Made by a program: the position numbers and the translations under genes
Assembly (NCBI GenBank): GCA_030671985.1
Contig: DAOVHI010000006.1
Location: 1-19,399, forward strand
Reading direction: 5' to 3'
DNA from: JAHJDO01 sp030671985 [NCBI: bacterium]
GTDB lineage: Bacteria; JAHJDO01
DNA: 19,399 bases
Notes under the pieces: generated by a model
Database searches by the model: none
What the model was told of the DNA's origin: nothing
What the model saw: the letters and a program-made list of their open reading frames with translations, nothing else
Shown here: positions 6,600-14,104 of the stretch, one piece after another
How positions within the stretch are numbered: the first letter of the stretch is position 1
Layout of the letters: every line of letters begins with the position of its first letter

Positions 6600-6642
6600 G
6601 CTGGTATTAGTAAGTCTAAAAGCGAAGGAGGTGAATTAAAAA

Positions 6643-7254
6643 ATGTTAAAATTCTTTAGAAGATCCAGAGGTTTTACGCTTATTGAATTGCTGGTTGTTA
6701 TAGCAATTATCGCACTTCTTGCATCTATGCTTCTGCCTGCATTGACAAGAGCAAGAGAGCAGGCAAGACGGGCAAGTTGCGTAAGTAACCTGAAGCAGAT
6801 CGGCTTGTCTTTGCATATGTACGCTCAGGACTGGGATGAAAGTTTTCCGTTTCTTTCAGCAACTACCGAAGCGTATATAGAGCTTGACATACTCGCTCCG
6901 AAGTACCTTACCAGACAGGTGTTTTTCTGCCCGAGTGCCGTATCAGTGGGTGATAGAAGATATGAGAGTGATGGTGCCGCGTTTGATGAGTTTTGCGTTT
7001 CCTATGCCTATGCTTATAACCTGTGCGAACAGGATGATGTTTCCACCGTGATTGTGGTTGATCAGTCTGGGGCAAAGGATGCTTTAGTGTGGGACACAGA
7101 GTTGGACGCCAGTCCTGTTAATCATGATATAGATGGTGTCAACGCGCTCTATATTGACGGTCATGTTGATTGGATTCCATTGGACCTCATAAAAAATGAG
7201 CTTTCTTTATATGACGCTGGGCTGAGAAATCCTGACGACGTCGACGGCAGCTAG
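6643..7254 (+). CDS. Prepilin-like protein, type II secretion/type IV pilin class (copy 1)
   Basis: Pilin or pseudopilin precursor of 203 residues. The N-terminus has the basic leader [10 protein letters not shown], a prepilin-peptidase cleavage site G10-F11, Glu at +5 (FTLIE) and one hydrophobic helix (about 11-35) that anchors and packs the subunit. A conserved block follows, [20 protein letters not shown], then [13 protein letters not shown]. Near the C-terminus [10 protein letters not shown] matches the YxDGHV motif of DUF1559/H-X9-DG-type prepilins common in PVC and Omnitrophota-like genomes. The ribosome-binding site AAGGAGGTGA (6625-6634) is a full anti-SD match 8 nt before the ATG. 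Its neighbour is a tandem paralogue. Whether it makes a pilus, a pseudopilus or a surface protein cannot be decided; no assembly genes are present here. Confidence 0.9.
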
Positions 7255-7309
7255 TAGATTTCTTCAAGTGATTTGAAAATTTTTGGATGATGAAGGAGGT
7301 GAAGTGAAA

Positions 7310-7879
7310 ATGATGAAATTTTTTAGGAAATCTAGAGGATTCACACTTATTGAATTACTGGTTGTTATAGCGATTATTGCTCTTCTTGCATCCATGTTGC
7401 TGCCTGCATTAGCAAGAGCAAGGGAAATGGCAAGACGGGCAAAGTGTATAAATAATCTGAAACAGATTGGTCTTGCTTTGCATATGTATGCTCAGGACTG
7501 GGACGATTATTTCCCAAAGAAACAGGACGATACGGTAGGTAACGATAATCTGTGCAAGCTAGCTGCTGGTGAGATAATGGATTTTTATCCGGATTATATT
7601 TCAACTTTGGAGATGTTTTTATGTCCATCTAGTGTAAATACTGTCACTACAGAGAGTAGTATTGGCGATGTTAATGCTAGTTATGGATATAATAGTCCGG
7701 CTGGTAAGGCGTTGACAGAGTTGGCTGGTGCGGATACACCGCTTATGGCTGATGATGATGTTCTTCATCACTTAAGTCCGGATGTCATCAATGTGCTGTA
7801 TCTTGACGGGCACGTTGAGGTACTAAGGGGTGAAAATCCTGCTGCTATAGCTCCGAGCAATGCTGATCTTAGCAAATAG
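7310..7879 (+). CDS. Prepilin-like protein, type II secretion/type IV pilin class (copy 2)
   Basis: Second prepilin-like protein, 189 residues from the ATG at 7310. Copy 1 and copy 2 are nearly identical over the first 65 residues or so (leader, G10-F11 cleavage site, [20 protein letters not shown] helix, then [18 protein letters not shown]). They then diverge strongly except at the C-terminal [10 protein letters not shown] motif. The ATG at 7310 (a second ATG follows at once) sits 7 nt after a full AAGGAGGTGA site (7293-7302). The in-frame TTG at 7283 would put that site inside the gene and is rejected. A strong terminator follows at 7907-7937, so the pair forms a two-gene transcript from 6572. 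The pattern fits a recent duplication with diversification of the exposed domain. Confidence 0.9.
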
Positions 7880-7937: not shown

Positions 7938-7964
7938 GCTTTAATTCTTGATTTTTAATATAAT
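7936..7964 (+). promoter_or_regulatory. Putative promoter of the ligase gene, almost no leader
   Basis: TTGCTT (7936-7941) is followed after 17 nt by TATAAT (7959-7964). A start near 7971 would coincide with the ATG at 7972, which has no usable Shine-Dalgarno sequence. The -35 begins in the U-run of the preceding terminator. Tentative. Confidence 0.45.
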
Positions 7965-10062
7965 GAGCAGTATGTCAAAATATCTACGTACACATAGCAC
8001 TGCAAGTGAAATCTGTCTGCTGATTATTGTCTTCTTTGTCCCAATAGCGGTTTTTAAACAGGCGTACAATTATGTATTTATAAAGTTTGTCATAGCTCAG
8101 GCTATGGTGTTTTATGTCATATTATTGTGGATCTATGATCGGTTATTTCAATGTAGGGGCACGGCGCGCCGTGCCCCTACAGGATTCCTCGGAGGGCTTA
8201 TATCTGCTCTCTGTGTATGGTGCTTAATATCATTCTTTACGGCATGGAACAAGTTTGCTGGCGCTACGGAATTGGTAAACTTGTTTACATATATTTTGCT
8301 TTATTTCGTTGTATTGGAAACATGTAAAAACAGACCGGCATTTTTAAGAATTTGTTTTGCGTGGTTTTTGGCTACATTCATAGCAGAAGTTCCTACACTA
8401 CTTAACTATTTTAACATTTCTGTAATTCACAATTTGCCCCGTCTGTTTGGTAATCCCACATTCTTTGCCCCGTATATTGTTTTGTGTATGCCTGTGATAT
8501 TGTCTTTTATCCTGTATTTTTCTGTGGATATAATTCCCCGAAGGAGAACAAGTTCCCTACGGGGCAGGCAAAATTTAAAATTGTTTTTTCTTGTGCTGTG
8601 CTGCATTTTAATTGTAACAGGCATTATTTCCCTTTATGGGTTAGAAGCAAGGGCCGCATGGATCGGGTTTGCTTTTTCTATTATCTTTTTCGTATTTATA
8701 TTTACCTGTTTTAAATGGGGGCCGACTAAAAGTTTTTACTTGTTTATTGGAATGATTCTCCTATGCGTTGCTGTATGGCAGATAAAGTCAGAATCGATAA
8801 TGAACGCTATTAATGAAGAACTAATCGCAGGAACTATTGGAATTCGGAAGTGGATATGGCTGGGATCGCTGAAGATGTTTCTAGCCAGTCCTTTTACAGG
8901 TTGGGGAATAGGCAATTTTGCCATAGTTTATCCGCAGTTCAGATGTCCAGAGTACTTTCTGAATCCTTACTCCGTAAATGCGACACAGCATGTGCATTGC
9001 GAGGCACTTGAAATCGGGTGCGAACTGGGGATAGTAGGATTAATACTCATTGCGGGAATTATAGGCAATATTCTTTTTCGAGGTGTAAATGCGGCAAGAA
9101 ATACAGATGACAGACTCAAAAAGTATTTGCTTATAGGATTTGTATCCGGAATAGCAGGTATGCTTTTCGAAAATCTTGGGAATGTAGATTTGAGATTTCA
9201 TTCTTCGGGTATATTTCTGTGGTTTGCTTTGGGATGCGTATCTGCTTTAAGCGGTTGGAAAACTCAAAACTCTCCAAAGGAGAACAAGTTTCCTGCGAGG
9301 CAGACTGGGCAGGTAAAATTTAAAATTCCGATCATAATTCTATGTTCAATGCTATTTTTATTTATATTCAGTTATTTCTCGCTCAGACCTTTAATTGCAG
9401 AGGTGTATTTCAGGAAAGGGGTTGAATATCGAAATAAAAAAGACTGGAATAAAGCTATAAATATGTATGAAAAGACGGTTCAGTTTAATAGGGGACATCT
9501 TAAGGCGTATTATCGCCTGGCATTTGCGTATGCCAAGATAGAAAACATAAAAGATGCTTTTAGAGTATATTATCAACTTGCTGAACTGGCTCCTGATTAT
9601 GCCGATATCCACTATAATCTGGCAAAATTACATACCATTACTAAAGATTACGAAAAAGCTGCTGAGGAATTAGCTATAGCTATAAGACGGAATCCATATA
9701 ATGATAAGGCGTTGATGAGTTTAGGAGATGTATATGAAAAGCTAGGGGAGCTTGACCTTGCCGCTCAACAGTATAAATGGGTCATTAAACTTAAGCCTAA
9801 GTTCGGAGGAGCACATAATAATCTTGGGAATATTTACGGCATGAAGGGAGAATGGGAGTGGGCAATTGAAGAGTACAAATTTGCCTTAATGCTTATGCCA
9901 AAAGCTCTTGGAGTCGCGCGTAATTTGGGAGTGGCTTATTGTAATAAAGAGGAATACAGAGAAGCTAAGAACATATTCGAAAAAATTCTACTTATACAGC
10001 CTGATAACAAGCAGGCGAAAACTTATTTGGAACAGATAAATAAAGTGATGAGTAAACAGTAA
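7963..10062 (+). CDS. O-antigen ligase/polymerase-like membrane protein with C-terminal TPRs
   Basis: Multi-pass membrane protein of the Wzy_C (O-antigen ligase/polymerase, WaaL-like) superfamily, expected to transfer or polymerise undecaprenyl-linked glycan on the periplasmic side. Numbered from the ATG at 7963 (699 residues), about 11-12 hydrophobic segments fill residues 15-475. The Wzy_C signature FTGWGIGNF...HVHCEALEIGCELGIVG lies near 311-359. About five or six tetratricopeptide units fill 480-690. In-frame starts TTG 7948, ATG 7963 and ATG 7972 are all possible; none has a clear ribosome-binding site. Three short palindromic repeats are embedded in frame in hydrophilic loops: residues 64-73, about 192-207 and about 437-455. 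Ligase versus polymerase cannot be decided from sequence. Confidence 0.85.
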   Translation: MSSMSKYLRTHSTASEICLLIIVFFVPIAVFKQAYNYVFIKFVIAQAMVFYVILLWIYDRLFQCRGTARRAPTGFLGGLISALCVWCLISFFTAWNKFAGATELVNLFTYILLYFVVLETCKNRPAFLRICFAWFLATFIAEVPTLLNYFNISVIHNLPRLFGNPTFFAPYIVLCMPVILSFILYFSVDIIPRRRTSSLRGRQNLKLFFLVLCCILIVTGIISLYGLEARAAWIGFAFSIIFFVFIFTCFKWGPTKSFYLFIGMILLCVAVWQIKSESIMNAINEELIAGTIGIRKWIWLGSLKMFLASPFTGWGIGNFAIVYPQFRCPEYFLNPYSVNATQHVHCEALEIGCELGIVGLILIAGIIGNILFRGVNAARNTDDRLKKYLLIGFVSGIAGMLFENLGNVDLRFHSSGIFLWFALGCVSALSGWKTQNSPKENKFPARQTGQVKFKIPIIILCSMLFLFIFSYFSLRPLIAEVYFRKGVEYRNKKDWNKAINMYEKTVQFNRGHLKAYYRLAFAYAKIENIKDAFRVYYQLAELAPDYADIHYNLAKLHTITKDYEKAAEELAIAIRRNPYNDKALMSLGDVYEKLGELDLAAQQYKWVIKLKPKFGGAHNNLGNIYGMKGEWEWAIEEYKFALMLMPKALGVARNLGVAYCNKEEYREAKNIFEKILLIQPDNKQAKTYLEQINKVMSKQ
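8152..8181. repeat. Perfect 30-bp GC-rich palindrome in frame within the ligase gene
   Basis: TGTAGGGGCACGGCG (8152-8166) is followed directly by its exact reverse complement (8167-8181). It is exactly ten codons on codon boundaries, encoding CRGTARRAPT in the loop between hydrophobic segments 2 and 3. It is far richer in GC than the flanking DNA. Similar GTAGGGGC...GCCCCTAC palindromes are, from memory, dispersed repeats in many genomes. Confidence 0.9.
8536..8582. repeat. Palindromic coding repeat, copy 1
   Basis: A hairpin CCCCGAAGGAGAAC...GTTCCCTACGGGG (8536-8564, one bulged base) is followed by GGGCAGGCAAAATTTAAAATT (8562-8582). Blocks 8541-8561 and 8562-8582 match copy 2 at 19/21 and 20/21 positions. 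In the ligase frame it reads PRRRTSSLRGRQNLK. Confidence 0.85.
9271..9327. repeat. Palindromic coding repeat, copy 2
   Basis: AAGGAGAACAAGTTTCCTGCG (9277-9297) and GGGCAGGTAAAATTTAAAATT (9307-9327) match copy 1, with about nine additional bases between the blocks and a weaker hairpin. Here the repeat is read in a different frame from copy 1, as SPKENKFPARQTGQVKFKI. Confidence 0.85.
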
Positions 10063-12396: not shown

Positions 12397-12695
12397 ATGA
12401 AAAGGAACAACATTTTTTTACTGATACTTATTGTTTTATTAGCTTCCGGACTGAGGCTCTACAAAGTCGGCTCGGAAAGTATCTGGTTTGATGAATATTT
12501 GTCATGTTTTTAACGATATTATTCCTTCCATGGTTGTTAGCAGTTAAGAATAGCGCTTCTTTGGATTCCATTTCGTGGATTAGCGCGCCCAATTTATTTA
12601 CTCCCTTTAAAATTTTTAGCCATTTAAGTATTGGAATTTTCGATCATTTTCCTTCTATTGGAATAAAAATATCCGGTATATTTTATTTTTCATAA
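12397..12695 (+). pseudogene. Decayed GT39/PMT-type glycosyltransferase
   Basis: The ATG at 12397 starts a typical PMT/ArnT-like N-terminus: a membrane helix, then LRLYKVGSESIWFDEYLS with the catalytic-site DE. It stops after 38 codons at 12511. From 12504 a second frame (+2 relative to the first) continues to 12695, with PWLLAVKNSASLDSISWI and NLFTPFKIFSHLSIGIF, resembling the middle of the same family (W(I)P/APxLxxLxKTFxxFS). At least one large internal deletion and a frame change are needed. The N-terminus is closely similar to that of the intact minus-strand gene at 12683-14095 (LRLYKLGSKSLWLDE), so the two are paralogues. The 3' end overlaps that gene by 13 bp. Confidence 0.75.
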
Positions 12696-14095
12696 AGCAT
12701 CAAATCTATATTCCCAGCGAAACCTTTGTATTGCTTTGAGATTTTGGTTTTAAGGTTTTTATCAAAGATTCTCCTAATTTCCGGGTTTGGGACGGAGACA
12801 TAGCTTGAGTTTTGTATGAGCCATATACGTCTCTTTAAATTGATTATTCTCGATAATGTTTCAGGAAGGGCGTTTCTCTTAATGCCATGTCTTTTTAAAC
12901 CTGTTTTATCATAATAGTCAAAGGCAAATCCTGCGTATGGGGGATCATAGCAAATGATATCATCCTGCATGGAATTTTTACTTATGAATAATGCGGCGCT
13001 TCTCCAGTTTTCTTTCGCGAAATCCCTGGAGTAATAAATCCTCAGAGATGCAAGATTCAGGAGCGCTATAAAGATGACGGCAAGTATGGATATGCTTTTC
13101 TTGGGAAATTTGGTGATAGCATGTGCAATTAATAGATATACAATCGGTGATAGGAATATTAAGTGCTTTGATTGAAATTGCGTTGTTCGGAATGGAGATA
13201 GAATCGTTATAATTATGGGAATCACAATCAATAGTATAAGCAGATAAATGTTTTTGTTATGTCTGTCATAGAAAACACCCATGGCAATAATAATTGTGAA
13301 TAAAATAAAAGTCAGAATAGCAGTGAGTCCGCTTTGCAAAAGGAAATAACCAAAAACAAATTGCGGAAGCATTATTATAATACTGCTCAGTTCAAACGGC
13401 TTTAGAAGAGTTGCTATATCTGCCTTTCTGCTGAATAAGACTAATATCTCGGGAATAAAAGCTAAACATGTTATTAGCGCTGTTGATAAGATAATTTTCA
13501 TACTGTTTTTAGCGGATTTTAAAAACCAGACAGCAACTATGTATTCTCCTATAATAAAAAAGGCGCTGTATACGTAAGTGTAGAGAGCGATGATATTTAC
13601 AACGGTAAACAATATCCACATTTTTATATTGGAAGTTCTTAAGGCGGAGACAAGAATTAGCAGAGATAACATGCATAGAAGTGTGATAAGCGCGTATAAT
13701 CTCGTTTCCTGAGCATAATATATTTGATATGAAGAAACGGAAGTTATAAGACTTGCAATAATCCCTGCTTTTTGGGAGAACAGGTTTTTACCTATTAAGT
13801 ATACTATCCAGATAGTTATTATGCTGAATAATGCCGATAGCAGACGAACATACCATTCCGTACTGCCAAGCGTTACCCAGAAATACAGAAGCAGATTGTA
13901 AAACGGGGGATGCGCGTCAGATTTTATTATTTGCGAAAGCATTTTAAATAGAGGCAGTTTTGCAAGATAGACACTGCACGCTTCATCAAGCCAGAGGCTC
14001 TTGGAACCGAGTTTATATAAGCGGAGAAAAACGCCGAATATAAGAATTGTTATGAATGATGGGTGATGGGTGATGGGTGATGGGTGATCACTCAT
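12683..14095 (-). CDS. GT39-family (PMT_2/ArnT-like) membrane glycosyltransferase
   Basis: GT-C-fold enzyme expected to use a lipid-linked sugar on the periplasmic face. Numbered from the ATG at 14095 (470 residues), about 11 transmembrane helices are predicted. The first periplasmic loop carries the catalytic acidic motif LWLDEACS, followed by SDAHPPFYNLLLYFW and SYQIYYAQETRLYAL, all typical of PMT_2. The C-terminal soluble part contains SKNSMQDDIICYD and IRRIFDKN. The N-terminal 16 residues (HPSPITHHPS) come from a heptanucleotide tandem repeat. A GTG one codon earlier (14098) is also possible. The start overlaps the upstream stop by 8 bp. Last gene of the minus-strand operon from 16901; the acceptor is unknown. 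Confidence 0.85.
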   Translation of the reverse strand: MSDHPSPITHHPSFITILIFGVFLRLYKLGSKSLWLDEACSVYLAKLPLFKMLSQIIKSDAHPPFYNLLLYFWVTLGSTEWYVRLLSALFSIITIWIVYLIGKNLFSQKAGIIASLITSVSSYQIYYAQETRLYALITLLCMLSLLILVSALRTSNIKMWILFTVVNIIALYTYVYSAFFIIGEYIVAVWFLKSAKNSMKIILSTALITCLAFIPEILVLFSRKADIATLLKPFELSSIIIMLPQFVFGYFLLQSGLTAILTFILFTIIIAMGVFYDRHNKNIYLLILLIVIPIIITILSPFRTTQFQSKHLIFLSPIVYLLIAHAITKFPKKSISILAVIFIALLNLASLRIYYSRDFAKENWRSAALFISKNSMQDDIICYDPPYAGFAFDYYDKTGLKRHGIKRNALPETLSRIINLKRRIWLIQNSSYVSVPNPEIRRIFDKNLKTKISKQYKGFAGNIDLMLYEK

Positions 14096-14104
14096 CACTC
14101 GTCG
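14058..14104. repeat. Heptanucleotide tandem repeat and imperfect palindrome at a gene junction
   Basis: Four exact copies of GATGGGT (14058-14085) and a partial fifth are followed by GATCACTCATCACTCGTC, which mirrors the last two repeats with three mismatches around GTGATCAC. The array spans the stop codon of the upstream gene and the start of the GT39 gene. A unit of seven is not a multiple of three, so copy-number change would shift the GT39 frame. Confidence 0.9.

Follow-up and report, generated by a model that had tools for sequence, protein, structure and literature searches.

A short hairpin repeat inside protein genes of two bacterial phyla, apparently a very small mobile element tolerated by proteins

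Why should one short repeat lie twice in a single membrane protein gene and be translated there in two different reading frames? The question arises from the window, the stretch of 19,399 nucleotides analysed here, which is one contig of a 1.25-Mb assembly (152 contigs). On its plus strand, positions 7963..10062 encode an O-antigen ligase-like Wzy_C membrane protein with C-terminal TPR repeats, as assigned by Pfam (PF04932 at residues 216-363, plus TPR families) and by orthologues. A repeat search paired 8532-8567 with 9268-9303 (36 nt, 83%, spacing 736) and 8559-8582 with 9304-9327 (24 nt, 92%, spacing 745), which confirms the duplicated block that a sequence-only reading had noticed in this gene. 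Because both spacings equal 1 modulo 3, the copies are read one base apart, as had been claimed, and the difference between the spacings corresponds to nine extra bases in the second copy. Copy 1 (8532..8582, plus strand, 51 nt including its A+T-rich tail) is a hairpin with tail, recognised by repeat pairing and folding, and is read IIPRRRTSSLRGRQNLKL. Copy 2 (9268..9327, plus strand, 60 nt including its tail) is a decayed hairpin read NSPKENKFPARQTGQVKFKI. When excised, copy 1 folds with an outer CCCCG/CGGGG stem at -14.3 kcal/mol, a value without shuffle control, and this outer stem is lost from copy 2, which has two AAAACTC units on its 5' side; folding and spacing agree with the earlier description of a strong first hairpin and an eroded, longer second one. 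The placement of both copies in hydrophilic loops was borne out as well, the two repeat-type segments having mean Kyte-Doolittle values of -0.96 (copy 1) and -1.33 (copy 2). Copy 1 is closely flanked by hydrophobic stretches above threshold (residues 174-184 and 210-223), and copy 2, at residues 436-455, is directly followed by one at 457-470, the nearest preceding stretch ending at residue 369. An AlphaFold model of the ligase region was too poor for use (mean pLDDT 36.9).

We then asked what related species carry at these loops. The comparison set includes four congeners, and beyond these the relatives share only the domain label with the window's genome. Orthologues of the ligase gene at 73-75% identity are present in G001, G002 and G003, and G004 gave weaker matches only; a scan of the genome contigs with the ligase alignment retrieved just the G001 gene again and one distant homologue. 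A perfect palindrome of 30 bp (GTAGGGGC...GCCCCTAC type; 8152..8181, no strand assigned) lies in the first loop of the ligase and is read CRGTARRAPT; it recurs in G001, but in G002 and G003 the palindrome is another one. Where the ligase has copy 1, a GGCAAAA array is found in G001, another palindrome in G003 and an AAAATTT-type array in G002, while the loop of copy 2 holds a GGCACAAA array in G001 and a TCAAAAA-type array in G002 and G003. With an additional palindrome-like segment in a further loop of the G001 protein, four loops vary in repeat content across the four orthologues, and none of the three related proteins has an empty loop at these sites. The loops of this gene are, judging from the alignments, unusually tolerant sites at which nearly every species has its own repeat. 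According to these data, the earlier claim of three insertions into one gene stands insofar as the gene has been a repeated target, but not as a count of independent insertions, since one of the two element copies could derive from the other inside the gene. Two further repeats of the window may be recorded here. An imperfect inverted repeat of GTGATGG-like units at 14070-14098, at the start of ORF 12683-14098 and read SDHPSPIT, is another short array within a gene, and two adjoining ORFs that we read as prepilin-like have a 209-nt stretch in common (6640-6848 and 7307-7515, 81% identity).

Searches for further copies close to home yielded fragments only. With copy 1 as query against its own genome, copy 2 was recovered at E = 2.0e-6 and no other place at E <= 0.001, and neither this genome nor the four congeners contained another full copy. 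As partial matches, G004 has 26 bases (92%) where a rarA-like gene begins, and the 20-base tail recurs in G004 with two mismatches and in G001 with three. A 14-base pattern allowing two mismatches produced 54 matches in G000 vs 24 for its reversed control and is too loose for interpretation. When 385 genomes were scanned with a 25-base pattern at up to three mismatches (<=3), nothing was matched except the window's own pair and a single exact copy in G364, a genome that by its label has no more than the domain in common with the window's; the reversed control matched once, in G374. This exact copy is read in frame within an AmrS-like radical-SAM gene, and its longest identical stretch is 39 bases with copy 1 (8535..8573, plus strand, by sequence comparison) and 14 bases with copy 2.

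This identity bears on the simplest objection, that the two blocks are low-complexity loops which converged on similar sequences with no shared origin. The sequence-only reading had held that such loops would be indicated by homologues carrying the same sequences, or by a lack of further copies in the genome. As described above, G001, G002 and G003 have different repeat sequences at the same loops. The second situation does literally obtain, there being no other full copy in the genome, and the loop segments of the orthologues are indeed repetitive; but since 39 bases of copy 1 recur exactly in another phylum's AmrS-like gene, unrelated to the ligase, and a family of 25 copies exists, convergence is excluded for practical purposes and its probability is negligible.

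To define this family, a gapped pattern was run against 385 genomes around G364, with G003 and G004 included and G000 left out. It returned 26 matches, in G364 (4), G387 (8), G097 (2), G386 (9) and G385 (3), so that five of the six genomes of that phylum are carriers; none was found in the sixth, G235, nor in the other 379 genomes, and the reversed pattern gave 0 matches in the 385. After removal of L190, which lies within L188, 25 distinct copies remained, a lower bound because divergent members such as the G387 AmrS copy escape the pattern; several of the assemblies are incomplete. All 25 fold with an outer stem (L192 is one pair shorter). The matched stretches measure 27-37 nt and have a common outer part, CCCGAA ... 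CTACGGGRCAGGC, most often as a 27-nt core equal to nine codons, the constancy of the outer bases being partly built in by a pattern that demands them. The inner hairpin is identical in 18 of the 25 copies and different in the other 7, and one of two short array motifs, with units of ~7-8 bases, occurs within 25 bases of the element in 16. Copy number is low throughout, with 2 copies in the window's genome and 2 to 9 matches per carrier genome of the other phylum, the latter being lower bounds. Viral sequences in IMG/VR gave no match to the tight pattern; the single match to the gapped one (L197) has an inner hairpin that does not fit by eye, and we took it as chance. Three stretches of element sequence had no match in the literature searched.

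Occupancy of individual sites was examined by comparing the flanks of the 25 copies with 522,530 bases of G364 and with other loci of that phylum. Four filled sites have a counterpart in G364 that lacks the element, namely L194 (G386, with a second copy close by), L171 (G385), L193 (G387) and L178 (G097). The place in G364 that matches L178 holds a different hairpin, and the one that matches L193 a different array. At the AmrS site, G364 and its sister species G387 (88% protein identity) are filled differently, the latter having an array-hairpin-array of another sequence, and in an AmrS-like alignment of eight sequences taken from 26 matches, six lack any insert; AmrS is the sole genic copy for which insert-free homologues were aligned at the DNA level. 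L188 (G386) and L173 (G097) represent the same site, with ~740 bases aligned, and it is filled in both genera; the copy here looks inherited rather than recently moved. No flanks matching on both sides were found for the remaining sites among the loci compared. No clean target-site duplication, such as a MITE makes on insertion, was seen at the compared sites; for L171 vs L221, a 23-bp overlap between the flanks was observed in the element-free genome, but the region is repetitive.

We next considered the copies that lie within genes. Seven of the 25 were counted as genic, and every one of their carriers gave a Pfam domain match: a Na/Ca exchanger, DapF, an Lnt-like CN-hydrolase protein, a Wzy_C protein, a UDG protein, ribosomal protein L22 and an AmrS-like protein (the names Lnt and AmrS are our own reading, and three of the seven ORFs run off a contig end). 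L192 and L193 were not counted because their ORFs cross the element upstream of the first start, and antisense open frames of at least 100 residues in L173, L174, L181, L182, L192, L193 and L197 were judged spurious. The element sits between the two domain matches of the exchanger and outside the conserved domain in the Lnt-like protein (N-terminal side), UDG (N-terminal extension) and L22 (C-terminal extension). For UDG, the best solved match, 4zbx, starts at query residue 56, after the element. For DapF, 9mro is the best solved match and has 26 residues fewer across the matched span. Of 17 solved matches, 15 break into two stretches on either side of the element; the first stops near query residue 87, and the second, where the best stretch reveals it (1gqz, 5ha4, 8qzy), resumes at 127-129. 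When the ligase orthologues and the Wzy_C homologue of G364 are aligned, at low sequence identity, the element of the homologue occupies the linker after the same helix as copy 2 of the window. All three frames are used: PEGQAYGAG in the exchanger, Wzy_C and UDG proteins; PKDKPTGQ or PKENKFPTGQ in DapF, Lnt, L22 and AmrS, with SPKENKFPARQ in copy 2 of the window; and RRTSSLRGR in copy 1. In G364, a different palindromic repeat, CGAGCGAAGCGAG, was seen in two copies (L062 982-999 and 1008-1025), in frame in a neighbouring ORF, 411-1184.

The earlier suggestion that the element is free of stops in at least two frames, and has been selected or filtered for coding tolerance, survived in part. The hairpin core is open in all three sense frames rather than just two. 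None of the 25 copies has a stop in the three sense frames, and one antisense frame has a stop; the full copies of the window with their A+T-rich tails, by contrast, contain a stop in one frame for copy 1 and in two for copy 2. Because 74% of shuffles of the 27-nt core are also stop-free in the three sense frames, the open core by itself is not evidence of selection, being no more stop-free than its composition predicts. Indirect signs of filtering came from orientation and flanks. The genic copies are in sense in 7/7 cases, or 9/9 with those of the window (two-sided sign test, 0.016 and 0.004, which are not true probabilities as the copies share history). The comparison of genic with other copies that had been proposed revealed a difference in flanking arrays: AAGTCC-type (AGTCC-type) arrays accompany 5/7 genic vs 0/18 other copies (Fisher p = 0.0004), and AAAGTG-type flanks 0/7 vs 11/18 (p = 0.008), in a test that was not blind, as genic status was our own reading with the flanks in view. 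Among the arrays tested, sense-frame stops are present in those of AAAGTG type and absent from those of AGTCC type.

An element kept for its function at each site, for example as a regulatory RNA hairpin or as a peptide, would also be consistent with uniform sense orientation of the seven genic copies, with the common outer stem around inner arms that vary in 7/25, and with one site kept in two genera. Such selection is nevertheless very improbable, given that other sites differ between related genomes, two of them holding a different hairpin, that the carriers have no common function, and that the search pattern itself accounts for part of the constancy of the outer bases.

A far stronger competitor, to which we give slightly less than an even chance, concerns the origin of the pair in the window: one copy would have come from outside, and the other would have arisen within the gene itself, whether by duplication, by template switching or by gene conversion between two A+T-rich loops. 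The two are the only full copies in their genome, they have the tail AAAATTTAAAATT in common, and both carry an inner hairpin variant that occurs, among the 26 gapped-pattern matches, in G364 only. Against an internal origin, CAAAACTC is found on the 5' side of copy 2 and next to the G364 copy but is absent from copy 1, and copy 2 differs by several transitions besides the nine extra bases.

A further possibility is that the element is of the GTAG type of REP sequences and is moved by a RAYT (Y1) transposase. Four of the five genus genomes contain strict GTAGGGGC-type palindromes, at five places in all; two of these are the same ligase site, and each place sits in an ORF; the reversed control hit one place each in G002 and G003. 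In G003 (L100 1501-1528), a UDP-glucose epimerase-like gene holds one such palindrome in frame, which its orthologues in G002 and G000 lack. In addition, we observed one inside a short Y1 transposase-like ORF of G004 (L098 1501-1528), read VGANGCSPLQ, and, on contig 56 of G003 (L079 17538-17568), a 31-bp palindrome read NPVRKDFSNGV, without counterpart in the G002 orthologue of the ORF. Strong palindromes are rare, seven contigs totalling 388,470 bases having six, of which four fall in ORFs, and across 87 gene pairs of G002 and G003 (30,022 residues of G003 ORFs) we found 17 internal gaps of at least three residues, three of which are of palindrome or array type by our reading, one of them in this ligase. 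Y1 transposase matches in 5/5 genomes of the window's genus, a neighbouring palindrome that starts with GTAG and the G004 case speak for a REP origin. We regard it as improbable, since the GTAG of the element, on the complementary strand, lies inside the stem rather than forming an unpaired terminal tag, copies are few, and G364, the sole carrier genome of the other phylum examined for a Y1/RAYT transposase, has four copies and no match.

Taken together, the two blocks are probably copies of a short non-autonomous hairpin element, similar to intragenic REP and RPE sequences, whose genic copies survive in loops and linkers. The differences in site occupancy suggest that the element moves. The window's lineage would have acquired it by horizontal transfer after the species split from its congeners; as far as sampled, the element is at home in the other phylum, and the simplest reading is that it was transferred to the window's lineage, a direction that we infer from copy numbers only. 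Intragenic copies may be retained because their positions are loops or linkers and they introduce no stop into the frame that is read. Observations against this account include the presence of just two full copies in the window's genome, both in one gene, and the L188/L173 site that is filled in two genera. A bolder version, which we consider rather doubtful, is that hairpin and heptamer array form a composite mobile element, active across phyla and living partly in genes, with a nine-codon core open in all three sense frames, stop-free 7-mer arrays that protect the frame, and permissive loops as shared landing sites where elements replace each other. The element seen here is smaller than the RPEs, is common at the DNA level to two phyla and lies inside unrelated genes, and related species carry different repeats at the same protein loops. 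Should it prove mobile, its size would be unusually small among mobile elements, and it provides a way, open to testing, in which peptide segments could be added to proteins by DNA repeats.

Several known systems invite comparison. Cyanobacterial small dispersed repeats are very small mobile repeats tied to heptamer STRR arrays, and the array motif within 25 nt of 16/25 copies is a likeness; compared by description, not sequence, the present element differs in having several copies in frame in conserved genes. Intragenic palindromic repeats as such are already known from Rickettsia (PMC2229807) and some REP-rich genomes (PMC3733652). The GTAG/CGTC REPs are described in PMC3733652 as 20-40 bp palindromes, some intragenic, with some genes hit twice and with two Xanthomonas species carrying different REPs at roughly the same position of recB. 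Our element is likewise a small palindromic stem-loop whose 27-37 nt fall within that range, but it lacks the unpaired terminal GTAG/CGTC tag, the complementary-strand GTAG falling within the core stem, its copy number is low, and the Y1 transposase is absent in G364, though present in 5/5 genus genomes. For the Correia/NEMIS repeats of Neisseria, PMC2229807 reports 107 and 155 bp forms with terminal inverted repeats, of which an open-frame version is fused in genes and a stop-bearing version is almost only intergenic. This genic/intergenic division resembles the split in array type seen here, again by description rather than sequence, whereas those lengths and terminal inverted repeats contrast with a core of 27-37 nt. 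The Rickettsia palindromic elements measure 105-146 bp and lie between genes as well as in frame inside conserved protein genes (PMC2229807). The present element is also found in frame in conserved protein genes; it differs in its core of 27-37 nt (51 and 60 nt with tails), in often standing in short tandem arrays, and in that one variant of it is common to two phyla.
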